From the IMG/VR virus record IMGVR_UViG_3300008266_000817, positions 1 to 32,574 of that record: a DNA stretch of 32,574 nucleotides, one strand, 5' to 3'. The notes below the pieces were generated by a model. It made no database searches. It saw only the letters and a program-made list of their open reading frames with translations, and was not told the DNA's origin. The stretch comes from a virus. This document shows, piece after piece, positions 4,341-27,603 of the stretch. The translations under genes and the position numbers were made by a program. Within the stretch, counting starts at the first letter, position 1, and each line of letters starts with the position of its first letter.

Positions 4341-7300
4341 ATGAGTTTCATACATTTACACGTTCACAGCCATTACTCTGCAATGGATGGATTAAATTCA
4401 CCAGAGGACTTGGTAAAACAGGCTAAGATACTTGGCATGCCTGCAATCTCAATAACTGACCATGGAACATTGTCGTCACATCGTGAAATACAAATTGCTT
4501 GTGACGTATATGGAGTAAAACCAATTCTTGGAGTAGAAGCCTACATTTCCCCAACAGATAGATTTGATAGATCATCATTTAAAGATAAAAGCATTCAAGC
4601 GTATAATCATATTATCCTTCTTGCAAAAAATAAGAAGGGGCTAGAAAATATAAATAAACTACAAGAGATAGCATGGACAGAAGGATTTTACTCCAAGCCA
4701 CGTATTGATAGAGAAGTATTAAATGAGTACTCCGAAGGGATTATTGTCTTATCTGGTTGCCTAAACGGTATTGTCAGCAAGGCTATTGAAAAAGAGAATT
4801 ATTCAGAGGCTAAACTTCTTCTTAAGAATTTCAAGCAAACCTTTATGGATGATTTTTATGTTGAAGTACAGTCTCATAATCCGCCACAAACAAATCAAAA
4901 ACTTTTAGAATTAGCAGATGAATTAGGAATAAAGGCGGTGGCAACAGGAGATATACATTACGCCAGAAAAGAAGATAGACTTTTAGAAGAGGCTCTATTA
5001 ATTATATCCACAAATCCAAAGGCAGACAAAGATGCCGATTTTGAAATGTCCCGTCAAATAAAAGATATGGCAGATAGATTTGATTATTTATATCCTGACC
5101 GCCGCATGTCATTTAAGGGCATGAATTTATTTATGCAGACTCGTGAGGAAATTGAGGCGGACTTTAAAAAGGCTGGAATAAATAGAACCGATATATTTGA
5201 TAATACCCTAGAGATAGCAGACAAGGTTGGCTCATATGACCTAAATCGTAACCTAGACCTCCTGCCAGTCCCAAAGACCAATGCTGATGAAAAGCTACGG
5301 GACCTAGCTGAAAAGGGCTTAGAAGGGCTAGGGAAGGCCTCAGATGAGGTCTATAGGGCTCGCCTAGAAGAAGAATTGCAGGTTATTAAGGATAAAAACT
5401 TTGCCTCATACTTTTTAATAGTTGCAGATATGATTAATTGGGCAAAGTCCCAAGGTATATTAGTTGGACCAGGACGTGGTTCGGCAGCAGGATCGTTGGT
5501 CTGCTATACAATTGGAATTACAGATGTAGATCCAATTGAATATGGCCTCCTATTTTTTAGGTTTATTAACCCAGATCGTAATGACTTCCCAGATATTGAT
5601 ACGGATTTTGAAGACCGCCGTCGTAAAGAAGTAAAAGATTATTTAAAGAAGAAGTTCAAGCACGTTGCATCTATTTCTACATTTACTTATTTTAAGGATA
5701 AGGGTGTAGTTCGTGATGCTGCTCGTGCTTTTATGGTTCCGCTTTCTGATGTTAACCACGCATTAAAGTCTGTAGATACATTTGAAGAATATGCCACTTC
5801 GCCAAATACAAAAGAATTTAGAATGAAATATCCTGAAGTAACTTGGCTTGCAGAAAATTTACGTGGCAAGATAAGAAGTACAGGTATTCATGCTGCTGGA
5901 GTCGTGGTGGCAAAAGATGATATTAGAAATTATGGTCCAGTAGAAACTAGAGAAGACCGTGAAGATAAGGCTTCTGGAAGAATTCCAGTAATTGCATATG
6001 ACATGGACACGGTTGCAGATATTGGTCTAATTAAAATCGATGCCCTAGGACTTAAGTGCCTATCCGTAATTGCAGACACATTAAATTCTATTAAGGAACG
6101 AACTGGCAAGGAAATAAAACTATCAGAGATAACTCTTGACGATAAAGAAGTTTATAAGATGCTTACAGAAGGATATACAAAAGGTATATTCCAGGCAGAA
6201 GCAACTCCTTATACAAACCTGTTAATTAAAATGGGAGCAAATGTATTTGAAGATTTAGTAGTCTCAAATGCTTTGGTTCGTCCAGGAGCTATGAATACAG
6301 TTGGATCTTCTTACATAAAAAGAAAACAAGGGGATGAGGCAGTAAATTATGTTCATCCCATAATGGAAGAATTTACCAGAAATACTTATGGAGTTATTAT
6401 ATATCAAGAACAGGTTATGCAGGCTTGCGTACACCTAGGTGGAATGACTTGGTCTGAGGCAGACAAGGTAAGAAAAATTATTGGAAAGAAAAAGGATGCA
6501 AAAGAATTCGACCAGTTCAAGGATAAATTTATTGAAGGTGCTTCAAAGCACATTTCTAAAAAGCAAGCAGAAAAGCTCTGGCATGACTTCGAAGCACACG
6601 CTGGATACTCGTTCAATAGGTCTCACGCTGTTGCTTACTCTATGCTTTCTTATTATACCGCTTGGCTTAAGCTACATTATCCTTTGGAGTTTATTTTCGC
6701 AGCGCTTAAAAACGAAGGAGAAAAAGACACAAGAACCGAATACCTAATAGAAGCTAAAAGATTGGGATTAAAGGTTCAACTGCCACATATAAACGAGTCT
6801 GATGTATACTTTTCTTTACAGAAAGACTCTTTGCGATTTGGGTTGGCAGAAATTAAATTTATATCAGACAGTATCGCAAACAAAATCATAGAAGGAAGAC
6901 CATATGCAAACTATAAAGACTTTATTGAAAAAGCCTCAAAGAAAGGAAGCGGCATTAATAGTAGGGCTATTAGCTCTCTTAATGCTATTGGCGGTGCTGC
7001 CTTTGAGGATAATCCTAGGAGCGGTAAAGAAAAAGAAGGATACTACGAATACCTAGGCATACCTTCATTTGATATAAAGAATATTCCCCCAAGAGTTAAA
7101 GCTCAAGCCTTAACAATAGATCAATTTGATCCAATAGGATCCTTTGTAATGTTCGGAATGGTTAAAAGTATTAAGCGTGGCAAGGGTTGGGCACGGGTTG
7201 AATTGGTAGATGAAACTGGCGGCATAGGTTTATTTCATCATGAGCAAACTCAAATTGAAACAGGCAAGATGTATTTTATTCTTGTCGGAGACAATCGTAT

Positions 7301-7610
7301 TGCTAGATATGTTGATGTAAACGATATAAACCCAGACTCTAAAGACCTATTTGTAGACTTCCTATACCGTAAAGAATATGATCTTGCGGAGGACGAGAAG
7401 ATTGTGGTAAACTTTACACCATATCAGACAAAGGCTGGCAAGACAATGTCACACATTGTTATGTCTGATAGGGACAAAAATTTGACCAGAGCCATTGCAT
7501 TTCCTTCAATGTATAAAATAACTTTAGCTAAAATGCGAGAAGGAATGAAATGCAAGCCAGTGCTATCTAAATTAGATGACGGCACATTAATGATTAAGGA
7601 AATAAAATGA
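4341..7610 (+). CDS. dnaE: DNA polymerase III alpha subunit (DnaE-type, PHP domain intact)
   Basis: This 1089-residue C-family replicative polymerase starts at an ATG with an AAGGCGG site. The N-terminal PHP domain retains all nine metal-ligand positions: H7, H9, D16, H41, E66, H90, C140, D204 and H206. The polymerase core has GPGRGSAAGSL, the catalytic PDIDTDF (D418, D420) and the third aspartate D567 in KIDALGL. A helix-hairpin-helix region and an OB fold (about residues 930-1000) follow. The length is close to that of cellular DnaE1 (about 1160-1200). It overlaps the next gene by ATGA. The PHP residues predict built-in 3'-5' proofreading, as known for mycobacterial DnaE1; no separate epsilon-type exonuclease is present here. 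Confidence 0.95.
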   Translation: MSFIHLHVHSHYSAMDGLNSPEDLVKQAKILGMPAISITDHGTLSSHREIQIACDVYGVKPILGVEAYISPTDRFDRSSFKDKSIQAYNHIILLAKNKKGLENINKLQEIAWTEGFYSKPRIDREVLNEYSEGIIVLSGCLNGIVSKAIEKENYSEAKLLLKNFKQTFMDDFYVEVQSHNPPQTNQKLLELADELGIKAVATGDIHYARKEDRLLEEALLIISTNPKADKDADFEMSRQIKDMADRFDYLYPDRRMSFKGMNLFMQTREEIEADFKKAGINRTDIFDNTLEIADKVGSYDLNRNLDLLPVPKTNADEKLRDLAEKGLEGLGKASDEVYRARLEEELQVIKDKNFASYFLIVADMINWAKSQGILVGPGRGSAAGSLVCYTIGITDVDPIEYGLLFFRFINPDRNDFPDIDTDFEDRRRKEVKDYLKKKFKHVASISTFTYFKDKGVVRDAARAFMVPLSDVNHALKSVDTFEEYATSPNTKEFRMKYPEVTWLAENLRGKIRSTGIHAAGVVVAKDDIRNYGPVETREDREDKASGRIPVIAYDMDTVADIGLIKIDALGLKCLSVIADTLNSIKERTGKEIKLSEITLDDKEVYKMLTEGYTKGIFQAEATPYTNLLIKMGANVFEDLVVSNALVRPGAMNTVGSSYIKRKQGDEAVNYVHPIMEEFTRNTYGVIIYQEQVMQACVHLGGMTWSEADKVRKIIGKKKDAKEFDQFKDKFIEGASKHISKKQAEKLWHDFEAHAGYSFNRSHAVAYSMLSYYTAWLKLHYPLEFIFAALKNEGEKDTRTEYLIEAKRLGLKVQLPHINESDVYFSLQKDSLRFGLAEIKFISDSIANKIIEGRPYANYKDFIEKASKKGSGINSRAISSLNAIGGAAFEDNPRSGKEKEGYYEYLGIPSFDIKNIPPRVKAQALTIDQFDPIGSFVMFGMVKSIKRGKGWARVELVDETGGIGLFHHEQTQIETGKMYFILVGDNRIARYVDVNDINPDSKDLFVDFLYRKEYDLAEDEKIVVNFTPYQTKAGKTMSHIVMSDRDKNLTRAIAFPSMYKITLAKMREGMKCKPVLSKLDDGTLMIKEIK

Positions 7611-14134: not shown

Positions 14135-14671
14135 ATGGACATTGAATTAGCTGATCATTTTGATCGCATGAATAAGGTTGTTGAGGAATTACTTAAGGGA
14201 AATAACCCTACCCAGATTGCCGCCCTGACGGGTTTTAAGCGGGCAGAAGTGTTAGGGTATATAGATGAGTGGAAAGATGTCGTTAAAAACGATTCTGGGG
14301 CCCGTGAGAGGGCAAAGCAGGCCATCTCTGGAGCAGACCAACACTACGCTATGCTTATTAAAGAGGCGTGGAAGACCGTAGAGGACGCAGACCAAGCAGG
14401 TCAATTAAACGTCAAGGCTACCGCCCTAAAATTAATTGCAGACATTGAAGGCAAAAGAATTGGCATGCTGCAAGAGGTTGGCTTATTGGACAATGTGGAA
14501 TTGGCAAATCAAATTGCGGAGACGGAACGCAAGCAAGAAATTTTGGTTGGTATACTAAAGGATGTCTCAGCAGAATATCCGCAGGTAAGAAAAGAAATTA
14601 TGCGTAGACTTGCACAGATAACTGGAGTTGTAGAACCTATAGAGATAATTGAGGAAGCTAGTGGATCTTGA
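14135..14671 (+). CDS. terminase small subunit (TerS)-like
   Basis: This 178-residue protein has an N-terminal HTH (about residues 20-50, GNNPTQIAALTGFKRAEVLGYIDEW), then long charged helices suited to oligomerisation. This is the layout of small terminases, which recognise phage DNA and feed it to the large subunit. It directly precedes and overlaps the large terminase gene. Identification rests on domain order and position, since TerS sequences diverge widely. Confidence 0.75.
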   Translation: MDIELADHFDRMNKVVEELLKGNNPTQIAALTGFKRAEVLGYIDEWKDVVKNDSGARERAKQAISGADQHYAMLIKEAWKTVEDADQAGQLNVKATALKLIADIEGKRIGMLQEVGLLDNVELANQIAETERKQEILVGILKDVSAEYPQVRKEIMRRLAQITGVVEPIEIIEEASGS

Positions 14672-16451
14672 TTTTTCAGATCTCATTGATATCCTAGACG
14701 GAGAGGAATTTGATGAAAGACCAGTCGATTTACGAACATTTGTCACAGGAACAAATTATCTTGGACTCCCGCCACTTTCGGAGTACCAACATACGCTCAT
14801 CGAAAAAAGCTCTCAGATCTATAAAGAATCCACTCTTATTAAATTATTTGGAGAAGAAGAAGGCCGACGTCGCTTCAAGCAAACCTGTAACGAAGTAATT
14901 GCACAATTAGGAAAAGGTAGCGGCAAAGATTATTGCTCAACAATTGCAGTATCTTATATGGTTTACTTGTTGCTCTGCTTGAAAGACCCAGCAACATATT
15001 ATGGAAAACCTCCTGGAGATTCAATAGATATTCTTAATATTGCTATTAACGCACAGCAGGCAAACAATGTTTTCTTTAAAGGATTTAAAACTAGAATAGA
15101 TAGATCGCCTTGGTTTATTGGTAAGTATGAAGCAAAGGCTTCTGAGATGAAATTTAACAAGGCAATAACCGTTCACTCTGGACACTCTGAGCGTGAGGCG
15201 TGGGAAGGTTATAACGTAATAGCAGTTATCCTTGATGAAATTTCAGGATTTGCTACAGAGAATACAACTGGGCATGACCAAGCAAAAACAGCAGATGCAA
15301 TATACGATATGTATAGAGGATCGGTAGTTTCACGTTTCCCAGACTACGGAAAGGTTATTCTTTTGTCCTTCCCCCGTTTTAAGAATGATCCAATACAAAA
15401 GTTTTATAATTCTGTTATAGCTGAAAAAGAAGTAATCCTAAGAAATAAAGTCTTAAAGATGGACGAAGGTTTGCCAGACGGCACAGAAGGAAATGAAATT
15501 GAGGTGGAGTGGGAAGAAGATAATATTATTTCCTATAAGATACCTAAAGTATATGCATTAAAAAGACCTACATGGGAAGTCAATCCAACTAAAACAATAG
15601 ATAACTTTAAAGTAGAATTTTATAAGAATATGCCAGATGCTATGGGAAGATTTGCATGTATGCCATCAGAAGCAATTGATGCATTTTTTAAATCTCGTGA
15701 GAAGGTTGAGCGGGCATTTAACAATATGTCCTTAGCCGTAGATAATTTTGGCAGATTTGAAAACTGGTTTTTGCCAGACCCAGATAAAGAATATTTTATA
15801 CATGTAGACTTGGCACAAAAACATGACCATTGTGCTGTGTCTATGGCACATGTTCAAAAATGGGTTAATGTTAAAGTAACTGATACATACTCACAGCCTG
15901 CCCCAATTGTAGAAGTTGACGCAGTAAGATACTGGACACCGACTTCAGATAAGTCCGTAGACTTCACAGAGGTTAAAGATTATATTCTATCTTTAAGAAC
16001 AAAAGGATTTAAGATAAGAGTCTGCACATTTGATCGCTGGAACTCTCACGATATGATGCAGCAATTAAAACAATATGGAATAAATACAGAGACTTTATCT
16101 GTAGCCAAAAAACATTACGACGATATGGCAATGGTGATTGCTGAGGATAGGTTGAGCGGACCACATATTAAGCTTTTAATTGATGAGCTTTTACAGCTTA
16201 GGATTATGAGAGATAGGGTAGACCATCCAAGAAAAGGTTCAAAAGACTTGGCGGATGCAGTTTGTGGTTCTATATATAACGCTATAAGTAGAACTAGATT
16301 TGAAAGTAATGAAGAAATTGATGTGCATACCTATGATTCATTAATGCGTAGGCCATCAAAAGAGCAGGATGAAATTGTATTAAATATGGTTAGGCCGCCA
16401 AGAATGCCTTCAAAATTGGCAGACGCTTTAGAGGGTATGGAGATACTGTGA
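14661..16451 (+). CDS. terminase large subunit (ATPase-nuclease)
   Basis: The motor packages DNA into proheads. The chosen GTG start at 14661 has GAGGA just upstream; a TTG 12 nt earlier is in frame but lacks that spacing. In the 596-residue product, the Walker A-like GKGSGKD is at 84-90, Walker B VIAVILDEISG has D192 and E193, and the RNase H-like nuclease shows D383 (FIHVDLAQKHDH) and D529/D532 (KDLADAV). The length is typical. It overlaps TerS by 11 nt and the next gene by GTGA. No portal gene follows, which is unusual. Confidence 0.9.
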   Translation: MDLDFSDLIDILDGEEFDERPVDLRTFVTGTNYLGLPPLSEYQHTLIEKSSQIYKESTLIKLFGEEEGRRRFKQTCNEVIAQLGKGSGKDYCSTIAVSYMVYLLLCLKDPATYYGKPPGDSIDILNIAINAQQANNVFFKGFKTRIDRSPWFIGKYEAKASEMKFNKAITVHSGHSEREAWEGYNVIAVILDEISGFATENTTGHDQAKTADAIYDMYRGSVVSRFPDYGKVILLSFPRFKNDPIQKFYNSVIAEKEVILRNKVLKMDEGLPDGTEGNEIEVEWEEDNIISYKIPKVYALKRPTWEVNPTKTIDNFKVEFYKNMPDAMGRFACMPSEAIDAFFKSREKVERAFNNMSLAVDNFGRFENWFLPDPDKEYFIHVDLAQKHDHCAVSMAHVQKWVNVKVTDTYSQPAPIVEVDAVRYWTPTSDKSVDFTEVKDYILSLRTKGFKIRVCTFDRWNSHDMMQQLKQYGINTETLSVAKKHYDDMAMVIAEDRLSGPHIKLLIDELLQLRIMRDRVDHPRKGSKDLADAVCGSIYNAISRTRFESNEEIDVHTYDSLMRRPSKEQDEIVLNMVRPPRMPSKLADALEGMEIL

Positions 16452-17396: not shown

Positions 17397-17747
17397 ATGG
17401 TAACAACATTTGCTATGGATCTTTTTAGAGATCCATTTTTTATTGGCTTCAATCGTGAAGTAGAAAGAGATTCATATCGTGTATCTTTGGCGGTGGCAGG
17501 ATTTGATAAGAAGGATATTGAGGTCTCAGTAGATAATCAGACTCTTATTGTTAAGGGTGAAGTTACTACAGAAGAGACTGGAGAAGTTCTTCACAAAGGA
17601 ATTGCCGCCCGTAAATTCACACGCACATTTGCGCTTGGTGAATATATGGAGGTAGTCGGAGCGGAATTTAAAAATGGCATGCTACACATTGATGTAGATC
17701 GTCTAATTCCAGAAGACAAAAAGCCAAAGACAATCAAGGTCAAATAA
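17397..17747 (+). CDS. Hsp20/alpha-crystallin small heat-shock protein
   Basis: This 116-residue ATP-independent chaperone contains the crystallin core: RVSLAVAGFDKKDIEVSVDNQTLIVKGE, then KFTRTFALGEYMEV and GMLHIDVDRLIPEDKKPKTIKV, the last with the G-x-L motif and the terminal IPE..KPK.I signature. The N-terminal arm is short. It has the best ribosome site in the window (AAAGGAGG) plus a strong promoter, so high expression is likely. Phage Hsp20 proteins are known from cyanophages, where they are thought to support assembly under stress. Confidence 0.92.
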   Translation: MVTTFAMDLFRDPFFIGFNREVERDSYRVSLAVAGFDKKDIEVSVDNQTLIVKGEVTTEETGEVLHKGIAARKFTRTFALGEYMEVVGAEFKNGMLHIDVDRLIPEDKKPKTIKVK

Positions 17748-22903: not shown

Positions 22904-23131
22904 ATGTTAAATCTTAATGAATTAGGTGTAGAACTCTTTATCAAAAGGGCAAAAGACATATCCCCATTTTGGGATAATTATGATTTAGTTATATGGAAAA
23001 AGGATTCTTCTGGATTTACTGATAAAAACGGGATGTTCAGGAAAAACTCTTGGGGAATATCTAAGAGAATAAAAGTAAATAATATTGGAGTCTGGGAGCT
23101 CCCTAAAAAATATGTCAAATATTTTAGATAA
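22904..23131 (+). CDS. hypothetical protein (75 aa)
   Basis: The ATG at 22904 has an AAAGGA site 5 nt upstream. A GTG at 22871, in frame and close to +1, would give an 11-residue longer, leaderless version (MGCCGLVIKDS...). The protein is rich in aromatic and basic residues (FWDNYDLVIWKKDSSGFTDKNGMFRKNSWG). It has no recognised family. It overlaps the WhiB-like gene by 20 nt. Confidence 0.55.
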   Translation: MLNLNELGVELFIKRAKDISPFWDNYDLVIWKKDSSGFTDKNGMFRKNSWGISKRIKVNNIGVWELPKKYVKYFR

Positions 23132-23423
23132 TTTAGGGGTAGATCCAGAAGACTTCTCTTGGTGGCATCTAGCAGTATGTCGAGGAATGGAAACAAATCT
23201 ATTCTATGACAAGTACGAATCTGATGTTAACGTTGCCAAGAATATAGACGAGGCATGCATGTCTTGTCCAGTTATGAAAATGTGTTTTGATTCTGGAGTT
23301 AAAAATTCAGAATACGGAGTATGGGGAGGAGTTTATTTGTCATCTGGAGAAATAGACAAGTCAAAAAATTTACATAAGACCCCAGAAATCTGGAAGAAGC
23401 TAAGGAGTAAAGGTGTCGCTTAA
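23112..23423 (+). CDS. WhiB-family Fe-S transcription factor
   Basis: From the ATG at 23112 (103 residues) the four cluster-binding cysteines are C23 (LAVCRG), C49 and C52 (CMSCP) and C58, followed by the GVWGG turn at 69-73 and a basic C-terminus. This is the complete WhiB signature: a [4Fe-4S] protein that binds the principal sigma factor and alters promoter choice. The family is nearly restricted to Actinobacteria and their phages, so this is strong evidence for the host phylum. A TTG 27 nt upstream is an alternative start. Confidence 0.92.
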   Translation: MSNILDNLGVDPEDFSWWHLAVCRGMETNLFYDKYESDVNVAKNIDEACMSCPVMKMCFDSGVKNSEYGVWGGVYLSSGEIDKSKNLHKTPEIWKKLRSKGVA

Positions 23424-24184: not shown

Positions 24185-24493
24185 ATGGATTATACCTCAA
24201 TCATTCTGGCTATTTCTGCCGCCATTTTAAGCGGCATGGGAACAGCAATTATTTCTGGAATAAGGGAAACTAGAAGAGAAAAGAACAGGCAGAATGAAAG
24301 AGAGCAGGACCAGCTTAAATTAGAGATAAAAGACCTTAAAATATCTTTATATAAGCTTGAGCGGGACCTGACAGAATGGAAAGACAAATATTATAATGCC
24401 ATTCAGGACCTAATTGTAGTAAAGTCAGAGCTTGAAAATGCCCTAGTACAATTAAATTTAGTTGAATTAAACGAGCTGGACTCCGAAATTTAA
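24185..24493 (+). CDS. membrane-anchored coiled-coil protein (102 aa)
   Basis: The N-terminal segment TSIILAISAAILSGMGTAIISGI is a membrane helix. The rest is a charged coiled coil with heptad Leu/Ile spacing (LKLEIKDLKISLYKLERDLTEWKDKYYNAIQDLIVVKSELENALVQL). The layout suggests an oligomeric membrane-tethered protein, for example a lysis accessory or an exclusion factor. No family is recognised. Confidence 0.6.
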   Translation: MDYTSIILAISAAILSGMGTAIISGIRETRREKNRQNEREQDQLKLEIKDLKISLYKLERDLTEWKDKYYNAIQDLIVVKSELENALVQLNLVELNELDSEI

Positions 24494-24505
24494 AAATAGT
24501 ACAAT
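24477..24505 (+). promoter_or_regulatory. leaderless promoter of the proteasome-like gene
   Basis: TGGACT (24477-24482), 17 bp, TACAAT (24500-24505). The ATG at 24513 lies 7 nt downstream, so +1 is at or 1 nt from the start codon. No ribosome site. Confidence 0.7.
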
Positions 24506-24512
24506 AGGGTAT

Positions 24513-25079
24513 ATGACCTGTATAGTAGCCCTCGCAGTTGGAAATAAAGTCTATCTTGGCGGAGACTCAGCCGCATCTGACGAAAAGTCTGGGCTAATTT
24601 TGCAAGTAACAGATTCTAAAGTTTTTAAAATAGGGCAATACGGCATAGGCTTTGTTGATAGTTTTAGAATGGGACAAATTTTACAATACAATTGGACACC
24701 GCCTATCTATAAGCCAACTACAGGATTTAAAAACTTAGATAAGTTTATGAGAACAAAATTTGTTCAATCCATAAAAGAGGCTTATCAGGAACATGGATAT
24801 GGAAAGTTTGGATCAAATACAGAAGATGGTGACGAAGGCGGAATTATAATTATTGCAGTACAAAATACAGGTAGAATTTTTATTATGGATGTGGACTTCC
24901 ATATATCTGAAGTAGATGTAGAATACTTAGCAGAGGGAAGCGGCCAGCAGGTAGCATTAGGATCATTGTTCTCTACGGCAGCTGTTAAAACTCCTCGCAA
25001 GCGTGTAAGAACAGCTTTAGAGGCGTCTTCTAAGTTCATAATGACCGTAAGAGGCCCCTTTACAATAATTGAAGTCTAG
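24513..25079 (+). CDS. proteasome beta/HslV-like Ntn hydrolase
   Basis: This 188-residue protein has the hallmarks of the proteasome-type N-terminal nucleophile family. Thr2 becomes the N-terminal nucleophile after Met removal (MTCIVALAVG), followed by YLGGDSAA (Asp17 in proteasome numbering), DSKVFKI (the Lys33-like base) and AEGSGQQVALGSL, equivalent to the conserved GSG...A.G. motif. Length fits HslV (about 175). No ATPase partner (HslU, Mpa) is visible, so it may work alone, with host factors, or as another Ntn amidohydrolase. It has its own leaderless promoter. Confidence 0.8.
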   Translation: MTCIVALAVGNKVYLGGDSAASDEKSGLILQVTDSKVFKIGQYGIGFVDSFRMGQILQYNWTPPIYKPTTGFKNLDKFMRTKFVQSIKEAYQEHGYGKFGSNTEDGDEGGIIIIAVQNTGRIFIMDVDFHISEVDVEYLAEGSGQQVALGSLFSTAAVKTPRKRVRTALEASSKFIMTVRGPFTIIEV

Positions 25080-25087
25080 AGTATAAT
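25059..25087 (+). promoter_or_regulatory. leaderless promoter
   Basis: TTTACA (25059-25064, inside the end of the proteasome-like gene), 17 bp, a perfect TATAAT (25082-25087). The ATG at 25094 is 6 nt downstream. No ribosome site. Confidence 0.8.
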
Positions 25088-25093
25088 AAAGAT

Positions 25094-25450
25094 ATGAAGT
25101 GGCTAAATAGATTGGCCGCCCTACTGTTCGGACTCATATCAGTAGGTTTAATTAGAGATTTCTTTGACAAGCACACAGTAGTTGTGCTTGATAAAAATTT
25201 TGAAGACGATGAAGAGGATGAGGATGAAATGGATGAAATAATTAATCTCAGACCAGATAATTATGATAATGCCATGGATCTTCGAGGAACCCCTACTCAC
25301 GTTTGCGCTTGTGGCTGTAACATATTTAATGTTAAAGTTATTTTTGATGATTATGAAATTGCTACATACTTTTTAGATATGGAATGTGCAAATTGTGGAA
25401 GCTTGGCAACTGCGCCAACGCCTATGGATAGTGAAGGATTAGATAATTGA
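25094..25450 (+). CDS. membrane-anchored acidic zinc-ribbon protein (118 aa)
   Basis: The N-terminal helix (LNRLAALLFGLISVGLI) is a membrane anchor or uncleaved signal, followed by a very acidic stretch (FEDDEEDEDEMDE) and a C-terminal zinc ribbon with CACGC (about residues 71-75) and CANC (about 99-102). Its role is unknown. The next gene overlaps it by 4 nt (TTGA). Confidence 0.6.
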   Translation: MKWLNRLAALLFGLISVGLIRDFFDKHTVVVLDKNFEDDEEDEDEMDEIINLRPDNYDNAMDLRGTPTHVCACGCNIFNVKVIFDDYEIATYFLDMECANCGSLATAPTPMDSEGLDN

Positions 25451-25632: not shown

Positions 25633-25661
25633 TTGACCTACTGGCTACAATTTAGTAGAAT
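25633..25661 (+). promoter_or_regulatory. leaderless promoter of the subtilase gene
   Basis: TTGACC (25633-25638), 17 bp, TAGAAT (25656-25661); the ATG at 25669 is 7 nt further. The -35 lies in a perfect hairpin TAGGT-ATTG-ACCTA (25627-25640) that includes the upstream stop codon. Confidence 0.8.
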
Positions 25662-25668
25662 AGACCCT

Positions 25669-26583
25669 ATGAATAAAAAACTAATAACTGCCGTATTGGC
25701 AGCAGTACTCACCATCACAACAACACATACGGTTGTGGCAAATACACAACCTGCAACAGTGGCAATTTTAGATACAGCATTAAATGCTAGTTTGCCAGTT
25801 TTTAAGGACAAGGTAGTCCAAGAAGTATGTATTCTAGACTGGCCATCTTGTGCTAATGGTAAAAGCTTTATGGAGGGCCCAGGAGCAGCCTCTATGCCTA
25901 TTTCACAGATGCTTAGAAATGGCTTCAATCATGGAACTAAGATGACACATGCATCAGTTCTGACAAACCCAAATGTAAAGATCGTATTTATTAGAATTGT
26001 CGGAGCAACAGTAAATGGCGATAGACAAACTACCAATGAGTCAACATTTGTTAATGCTCTAACATGGGTATTAAATAACAAAGATAAATATAACATTACT
26101 GCCGTAGCAATGTCGCAAGGACACGGAAATTATTTACGTATAGCAGACTATTGCCCGAATACCCCAGCAACAAGAGGATTGATCTCGTCATTGAATCAGG
26201 CTGGAGTTCCAGTATTCCTGCCAGCAGGAAATGCAAGAGATTTGACTAGAGTATTTTGGCCATCATGCTTTACAGAGGCAGTAACGGTCAGCGCTAGTTC
26301 TGTCACGGGTGGCCCTGCAGTTTATACCAACTATGATAAAAATATTACAGATATGTTTGCCCTAGGAAGGCTAAGAGTATCTGATGCTAACGGAATGCTG
26401 TTTAATGAAGATGGAACTTCTATATCCGTTCAGGTTGCAGCAGCCGTATATTATGGCTTAAAGCAAAAAAATCCTACCTTAACAAGTTCACAAATCATTG
26501 ATTTGATGAAGACTAAAGGTAATAAGCTAACAAGCAAGACCATATCTGCAATAGTCGTAGATAAGGAATTGTTAAATGGCTAA
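25669..26583 (+). CDS. secreted subtilisin-like serine protease (S8)
   Basis: From the ATG at 25669 the protein has 304 residues. A signal peptide (1-24, basic NKK, hydrophobic core, VVA cleavage site) is followed directly by the catalytic domain. The triad is in S8 order: D35 in VAILDT, H88 in NHGTKM and S251 in GTSIS, with the oxyanion Asn N188 in PAGN. No pro-domain is visible between signal and catalytic Asp, which is unusual, because most secreted subtilases need one to fold. An in-frame TTG at 25633 falls on the -35 box and is rejected. The likely role is outside the cell: envelope processing or degradation of surface proteins. Confidence 0.82.
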   Translation: MNKKLITAVLAAVLTITTTHTVVANTQPATVAILDTALNASLPVFKDKVVQEVCILDWPSCANGKSFMEGPGAASMPISQMLRNGFNHGTKMTHASVLTNPNVKIVFIRIVGATVNGDRQTTNESTFVNALTWVLNNKDKYNITAVAMSQGHGNYLRIADYCPNTPATRGLISSLNQAGVPVFLPAGNARDLTRVFWPSCFTEAVTVSASSVTGGPAVYTNYDKNITDMFALGRLRVSDANGMLFNEDGTSISVQVAAAVYYGLKQKNPTLTSSQIIDLMKTKGNKLTSKTISAIVVDKELLNG

Positions 26584-26831: not shown

Positions 26832-27305
26832 ATGCAAACATTTTTACCAGAGGCGGACTTTGCAAATACTGCAAAGCATTTAGATCGCAAAAGACTTATC
26901 AAGCAGAGTGTAGAAAACCTGCAAGTATTAAAGTCTTTAGCTGGACTTTACAGTTCAGGTGCTTGGAAGAATCACCCAGCAGTCAAAATGTGGGAGGGTC
27001 ATGAAGACTGGCTCTTCTTATACAATGAGGCCATAGTCAAAGAGATCATCATGCGTGGCTATAAAAATAGCACAAGAAAGAAGTTTGATGAGATATATCA
27101 AGAGAACTTCATGTTTCTAGAGTCTCAGGAGCCTTGGTGGCTAGGAGAAGAGCCTTTACATTATTCCCATAAGGGCAGACTATACGAGAAAGATCCAGAT
27201 AAGTATTATTTTTATTCTGAATTTGCTGATTATAGGCAACTAGGATATACTTGCTGTGAATCTTGCAGTTACTACTGGCCTACTCACGTGGAGGATAATG
27301 ATTAA
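26832..27305 (+). CDS. pyrimidine-dimer DNA glycosylase-like (MSMEG_6728-type) protein
   Basis: This 157-residue protein matches the family pattern MQTFLPxxDFxxxAxxLDRKRLxKQxVExLQ, then WKNHPAVKMWEGHEDWLFLYN and RGYKNSTRKKF, and a C-terminal LHYSHKGRLYEKDPDKYY. This group is related to T4 endonuclease V (denV-type), which removes UV dimers. The family's second-position Gln and Glu/Arg residues are kept. The catalytic assignment for this branch is by homology only. UV repair would suit a phage of sunlit water. Confidence 0.75.
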   Translation: MQTFLPEADFANTAKHLDRKRLIKQSVENLQVLKSLAGLYSSGAWKNHPAVKMWEGHEDWLFLYNEAIVKEIIMRGYKNSTRKKFDEIYQENFMFLESQEPWWLGEEPLHYSHKGRLYEKDPDKYYFYSEFADYRQLGYTCCESCSYYWPTHVEDND

Positions 27306-27603
27306 TTTAACAAAAGAAACCTTCAGCAAGTCTTTAGGTGAAAATGATATAATGATAGTAGACTTCTGGGCGGATTGGTGTGGACCTTGTTTAAAGGTTG
27401 CTCCAATATTAGAAGAGTTAGAAGACGAGTACAAAGTACAAGTTTATAAAGTTCATGTAGATGAACAAACAGAGTTGGCACAAAAGTATGAGATAACAAG
27501 TATTCCCACCTTGCTAGTATTTGAAAAAGGAATACCAGTAAAGAAACTTGTTGGAGCATACCCGAAGCACAAGCTCGTAAAGGAGCTTGAAGGATGGATT
27601 TAA
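27298..27603 (+). CDS. thioredoxin
   Basis: From the ATG at 27298 (overlapping the upstream gene by 8 nt) this is a 101-residue thioredoxin: VDFWADWCGPCLKVAPIL has the redox-active WCGPC, and the cis-Pro is in TSIPTLLVFEKG. The length matches TrxA. It would reduce disulfides or, as in T7, could serve as a processivity factor, though the DnaE-type polymerase here makes the latter unlikely. It overlaps the next gene by 10 nt. Confidence 0.93.
   Translation: MINLTKETFSKSLGENDIMIVDFWADWCGPCLKVAPILEELEDEYKVQVYKVHVDEQTELAQKYEITSIPTLLVFEKGIPVKKLVGAYPKHKLVKELEGWI

Follow-up and report, generated by a model that had tools for sequence, protein, structure and literature searches.

Introduction

The nearest solved fold to the protein described here is that of BPH, the betaproteobacterial proteasome homolog, which forms tetradecamers (14-mers) and whose loop between helix H2 and the next strand forms the pore. 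Mass spectrometry demonstrated that its start methionine is removed, exposing Thr1, and epoxomicin modifies this residue, yet BPH is inert on standard peptides and casein. HslU was absent from its pull-downs, and BPH is without a known unfoldase (PMC5777263). The family AAH was named for its range in alpha-proteobacteria and actinobacteria by Fuchs, Alva and Lupas (2021; PMC8665760). Their survey found AAH in many phages and in none from actinobacteria, and its table does not mark BPH in phages. It reports no AAA+ interactor that accompanies the new homologs and no informative gene contexts, and states that H3-H4 insertions are able to block double rings (PMC8665760). In the literature we found no experiments on any AAH protein and no published role for any phage-borne proteasome homolog.

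Here we analyse positions 1 to 32,574 of the viral record IMGVR_UViG_3300008266_000817, a stretch of 32,574 nucleotides which is called the window in the following. An initial annotation, made from the letters alone, had read one of its genes as a phage-encoded proteasome-type Ntn hydrolase. Our comparisons support a phage-borne protein with a predicted proteasome fold that is likewise predicted to be catalytic. The features discussed are collected in Table 1.

Table 1. Features of the window that bear on the proteasome-type gene, in order of position.
Feature	Coordinates	Strand	Basis
DnaE-like DNA polymerase	4341..7610	+	56.9% identical, full length, to Streptomyces phage BillNye (Stanwilliamsviridae)
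Terminase large subunit	14649..16451	+	63.6% identical to Streptomyces phage Gilson (Stanwilliamsviridae)
WhiB-family regulator	23085..23423	+	Pfam WhiB, E 4.5e-11; ORF start as listed
Promoter of the protease gene: -35 TGGACT (24477-24482), 17-nt spacer, -10 TACAAT (24500-24505)	24477..24505	+	Sequence and lineage-wide conservation
Proteasome-fold N-terminal-threonine hydrolase gene (AAH / PHROG 1040 type)	24513..25079	+	ORF and translation, PHROG 1040, AlphaFold, PDB folds
Thr2 codon, predicted nucleophile (Thr1 after Met removal)	24516..24518	+	Aligned to HslV Thr1
Asp18 codon (Asp17 equivalent)	24564..24566	+	117/117 in alignment A6
Lys36 codon (Lys33 equivalent)	24618..24620	+	117/117 in alignment A6; aligned to HslV Lys33
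Pore-loop region, residues 94-111 (HGYGKFGSNTEDGDEGGI)	24792..24845	+	In the model, the segment linking helix H2 (75-93) to strand 112-116
Membrane/zinc-ribbon neighbour	25094..25450	+	Sequence: acidic linker joining one apparent N-terminal membrane helix to a CxC...CxxC zinc-ribbon-like end
Subtilase neighbour	25669..26583	+	Pfam S8, E 1.6e-9; signal-peptide-like start; own leaderless promoter 25633-25661

Results

The gene product comprises 188 amino acids and starts with M-T-C-I-V. It is matched by PHROG 1040, 'peptidase HslV family', over residues 1-186 (E 4.5e-14), and 170 phage records match it, 167 of them over at least 80% of its length. A first viral scan gave 162 relatives and later scans more than 500. 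Within the clade, dN/dS is about 0.1, which indicates purifying selection. Given the number of relatives, this selection and a confident structural model, the reading frame is far beyond chance. By itself, the Pfam Proteasome model PF00227 left the protein below its cut-off (E 0.011) and reported nothing in the window. A family profile built from 117 diverse relatives (alignment A6), in turn, matched HslV of T. maritima (1m4y) over nearly the full length with E 1.7e-10, the best sequence-profile match, and BPH, again nearly full length, with E 3.9e-8. AlphaFold (AF2) reached a pLDDT of 40 if supplied with close relatives alone; the diverse alignment raised this value to 95.2, with a pTM of 0.90. 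Among PDB folds, the model ranked BPH first (5ovs, 5ovt, 5ovu; E 2.3e-10, TM 0.73), HslV second and 20S beta third, and its top viral structure matches were the same kind of phage protein. Sequence, profile and predicted fold thus bear out the Ntn hydrolase reading, and the structural comparison that the initial annotation had proposed as its check returned proteasome-type folds and no different one. The novelty which that annotation implied is smaller, since PHROG 1040 and the AAH and PPH families (PMC8665760) already cover phage-borne proteasome homologs.

In the profile match, Thr2, Asp18 and Lys36 align with Thr1, Asp17 and Lys33 of T. maritima HslV, and all three residues are invariant throughout the 117 diverse relatives. 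Loss of Thr2 in relatives had been named as a finding that would overturn the assignment; among 412 relatives position 2 is Thr in 411 and Ser in the remaining one. The oxyanion-hole glycine is kept in 110 of 117 family members. All motifs that had been listed as intact were found, namely Thr2, GGD (with Asp18), DSK (with Lys36) and GSGQQVALGSL (142-152), the last of which aligns with the GSG motif of HslV. However, the serine of this motif does not serve as a sign of intactness as had been assumed: of 117 members, 85 have Cys and 26 have Ser at this position, which is therefore no marker of activity here. The position corresponds to proteasome Ser129 (window residue 143, 24939-24941), is mostly Cys in AAH-type proteins and is occupied by Ala in some members of the window clade, with the nucleophile kept.

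In the AF2 model the chain begins with Met-Thr, without a propeptide, and is ended by its last strand (184-187). It contains the helices H1 (51-60), H2 (75-93), H3 (145-154) and H4 (161-175), has no H3-H4 insertion and only a short S3-S4 loop without insertion, and lacks a C-terminal S12/H5, giving a compact subunit. The pore loop of the window clade comprises 18-19 residues, three to four of them acidic, and contains TEDGDEGG (T-EDGDE-GG). In bacterial AAH relatives it comprises 15 residues, mostly with a net charge of about -1, so that the window loop is 3-4 residues longer and more acidic. BPH carries EDEDD or EDKED (PMC5777263) at almost the identical place where the phage protein has EDGDE. 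The initial annotation had asked whether ATPase-docking residues are kept; the alignment places the acidic loop where HslV has its basic pore cluster Arg86/Arg89/Lys90.

Judged by the taxonomy of its hits, on which the assignment rests, the protein probably belongs to AAH (group I) rather than CPH. We found the Thr/Asp/Lys triad, relatives in alpha-proteobacteria and actinobacteria, a compact H1-H4 arrangement without propeptide, i.e., the group I layout, no AAA+ partner and an occurrence in phages, all of which resemble AAH. A search of bacterial genome contigs with the single protein, aimed at close relatives, found no host copy. The family alignment, applied to genome contigs, recovered 123 loci, the best 80 of which were mostly from Azospirillum, rhizobia and Frankia. 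Bacterial relatives from Azospirillum, Rhizobium, Mesorhizobium, Frankia and Actinomadura share 33-41% identity with the window protein, and AAH occurred in 26 of 297 genomes sampled from the actinobacterial class. Around the bacterial genes, a neighbourhood search revealed genus-level synteny alone and no shared partner, with noisy ORF calling in the high-GC loci. In the tree, bacterial AAH are intermixed with many viral copies, and the window clade and its sister clade form one branch outside this main bacterial mix (SH-aLRT 100). Since the nearest relatives are all viral contigs of the window lineage, no donor could be named.

Other families were considered and rejected. Phage proteasome homologs (PPH) comprise about 140 residues and lack H2, whereas this protein has 188 residues and H2, and connectases carry a two-helix S3-S4 insertion and no H1/H2 in that place, whereas the loop is short here and both helices are present (criteria of PMC8665760). 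BPH is resembled in the acidic pore loop, in the missing propeptide and in having no known unfoldase, but the structural alignment gives only 15-17% identity and a single-sequence search only E 0.12; the profile match indicates homology, not membership. HslV shares the catalytic residues, but differs by the presence of HslU and of the basic cluster; in addition, the NCBIfam HslV models give no match to the window protein. Membership in 20S beta is contradicted by a best NCBIfam score of 15.5 bits against a cut-off of 224 bits (archaeal beta model) and by the blank PF00227 result.

Further phage homologs are more distant. Those of T5-like, Aeromonas, Vibrio and Geobacillus phages (PHROG 1040) are about 28-36% identical and have different neighbours (ThyA/DHFR, RNR, PhoH). 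The distant copies of the actinophages DSL-LC01, Pumpernickel and Hum25 match the family profile with E 1.2e-45, 1.7e-26 and 9.4e-19, and the copies of DSL-LC01, Pumpernickel and Hum25/Pitbull are annotated as 'protease' or 'HslV'. In DSL-LC01 a WhiB gene adjoins the HslV-like gene as well, but this copy shows 30% identity, a separate long branch and another genome context.

The phage host is almost certainly an actinobacterium. This conclusion follows from sequence likeness: terminase and DnaE are closest to Stanwilliamsviridae (Table 1), and Gilson and the window share the order polymerase, RecA-like recombinase, Cas4-like exonuclease, RuvC, glycosyltransferases and terminase. The window also encodes WhiB, which marks actinophages (PMC6802176; PMC10202952). 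A freshwater habitat of the lineage is suggested by its likeness to published freshwater actinophages and by recognised IMG/VR sample numbers. WhiB and thioredoxin bound a non-structural region of Gilson, and in the window the protease gene lies between their counterparts and not among the head genes. Protease and subtilase are both missing from the three Streptomyces relatives tested, and thus represent either gains in the window lineage or losses in the others.

Across related loci the neighbourhood is stable, with WhiB conserved in 76, the zinc-ribbon gene in 78 and the subtilase gene in 72 of 80. Both the subtilase and the membrane zinc-ribbon neighbour are present as originally described. 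The subtilase has intact Asp, His, Asn and Ser residues; in relatives, Asp and His are kept in 73 of 73 and Asn and Ser in 72 of 72, and no match was found among 50,697 named phage records. It is probably a secreted phage serine protease. An Hsp20-like chaperone (17397-17747) and the thioredoxin (27256-27603) are further protein-quality genes of the window. In several named distant phages the homolog lies beside ThyA/DHFR, ThyX, RNR or PhoH rather than next to head genes. A thymidylate-synthase/PhoH link was found at just 1-2 of 168 loci of the wider IMG/VR set (queries used); as it failed to generalise, it was dropped as a functional clue.

The protease gene appears to be expressed on its own. 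Its ATG starts 7 nt past TACAAT and the mRNA is predicted to be leaderless. Of the distinct upstream sequences, all 50 from the window clade and 46 of 54 from the sister clade have a TAGTANNNT box 5-9 nt ahead of the start codon. Among other viral relatives it was found in 0 of 86, and 63 of these carry Shine-Dalgarno-like motifs. A generic promoter scan by itself returned no more sites than shuffled sequence, so the case for the promoter rests on conservation. The zinc-ribbon gene (-35 at 25059, -10 ending at 25087) and the subtilase gene each have a leaderless-type promoter as well, and the protease gene thus resembles a single-gene unit. Spacing of the -35 and -10 elements and conservation of TAGTANNNT hence agree with the leaderless unit proposed initially. 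Including these three, a set of genes of the window (at 14135, 16802, 20412, 22871, 24185, 24513, 25094, 25669 and 26832) have their -10 box 6-9 nt ahead of the start codon and mostly no Shine-Dalgarno sequence, and others have clear Shine-Dalgarno sites, pointing to two start modes in one phage.

That no unfoldase gene lies nearby holds beyond the window: 17 related contigs, each 70-120 kb long, gave no match to AAA_2 or the ClpP family. In three related contigs an AAA motif gave weak, sub-threshold scores of about 16 bits.

Discussion

Taken together, we lean toward the view that the protein is an AAH-type, group I ring protease of freshwater actinophages that works in the cytoplasm without an unfoldase and degrades selected host or early phage proteins. 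According to this model, the protease would be translated from its own leaderless mRNA, and the host methionine aminopeptidase would cut off Met1 and thereby free Thr2 as nucleophile, assisted by Lys36 and Asp18. Self-assembly of the subunits would most likely yield a double-layered ring that encloses the active sites, as in BPH and HslV. With no dedicated AAA+ unfoldase, and presumably independent of ATP, flexible or unfolded chains would pass the acidic pore loop, which might act as a filter. Degradation of chosen proteins could then aid infection through takeover, shut-off or counter-defence, a role that would be neither virion maturation nor replacement of the host proteasome. As BPH is inert on standard substrates, activity may require an activator or a special substrate.

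The unfoldase might instead be supplied by the host. A phage peptidase ring could dock on an AAA+ unfoldase of the host, either Mpa/ARC or one of the Clp ATPases, and redirect targeted degradation during infection. Actinobacterial AAH carriers also have a 20S locus, actinobacterial hosts with such a locus probably offer a proteasomal ATPase, and the phage brings no recognised unfoldase of its own. Nevertheless, we regard such docking as unlikely, with an acidic loop in place of the basic HslV cluster, BPH pull-downs without HslU (PMC5777263) and the missing AAA+ interactor of the new homologs in the 2021 survey (PMC8665760). The 20S of actinobacterial AAH carriers, together with the actinobacterial host, could also invite poisoning or modification of the host proteasome by mixed rings or capping. 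However, identity to 20S beta is low (11-16%), the catalytic residues are strictly kept, which would be needless in a dead subunit that acts as a poison, and relatives in Salmonella, Vibrio and Aeromonas phages imply that the actinobacterial 20S is no common target, which makes this scenario highly improbable. Replacement of the host proteasome or HslV, another role suggested in the initial annotation, is unlikely since 8 of 9 AAH carrier genomes also contain other proteasome-family genes (adjacent pairs typical of 20S in actinobacteria, HslV-like genes in others); furthermore, the pore loop is nearer to that of the unfoldase-free BPH than to HslV.

Dedicated head-maturation proteases are common in phages, and processing of a scaffold, capsid or tail protein had accordingly been among the initial suggestions. 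Yet a separate HK97-type prohead protease (Peptidase_S78) is present in 16 of the 17 large related contigs; in the nearest contig it is located at 41 kb and the proteasome homolog at 100 kb, about 59 kb apart. Given this separate and distant enzyme, the position of the gene between WhiB and thioredoxin and the absence of AAH from the three Streptomyces relatives, virion processing is very unlikely. A sequence-specific enzyme rather than a general protease, for example a connectase-like transpeptidase or the processor of one regulator, would fit the inactivity of BPH on standard substrates (PMC5777263), and connectase is an example of the same fold turned ligase (PMC8665760). The model, however, shows H1/H2 and no connectase-type S3-S4 insertion, and we consider such an enzyme improbable as well. 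We thus retain an unfoldase-free ring protease with selected substrates as our preferred reading. A narrower version is put forward tentatively and with considerable doubt: a dedicated, unfoldase-free compartmental AAH protease, whose acidic gate is lengthened and whose gene has a promoter to itself, would remove specific host proteins, e.g., regulators of defence or growth, while the phages infect freshwater actinobacteria.

The AAH kind is already known from bacteria and phages and is catalogued as PHROG 1040. New details are a probably freshwater actinophage lineage with AAH, its longer and more acidic pore loop and its own leaderless promoter; compared with AAH as described in 2021, the window lineage consists of actinophages in which this promoter is conserved. 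The lineage supplies the actinobacterial phage with AAH that the 2021 survey noted as missing, and bears on the route by which AAH came into actinobacteria. It also provides a sharp test case: the gene is conserved in hundreds of copies, its active site is intact, the prohead protease is a separate enzyme, no ATPase partner was found and the three tested Streptomyces phages do without the gene. If a dedicated AAH protease indeed removed host proteins, this would be the first function assigned to any AAH protein and would add a new way for phages to take over their hosts.

Some distant homologs show features of their own. In DSL-LC01 (L420, 27507-27929), an AAA-family ATPase lies about 10 kb upstream of the HslV-like gene and may be either a partner or a replication ATPase. 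At two loci (L055, 12085-12567; L058, 9786-10202), the same phage encodes a second, DSL-LC01-like homolog with its N-terminal Thr, which follows the first one about 6 kb further downstream. Aeromonas phage 4L372XY (L424) carries two adjacent, divergent HslV-like genes (770-1321 and 1339-2166), both with an N-terminal Thr, and their products possibly form mixed rings.
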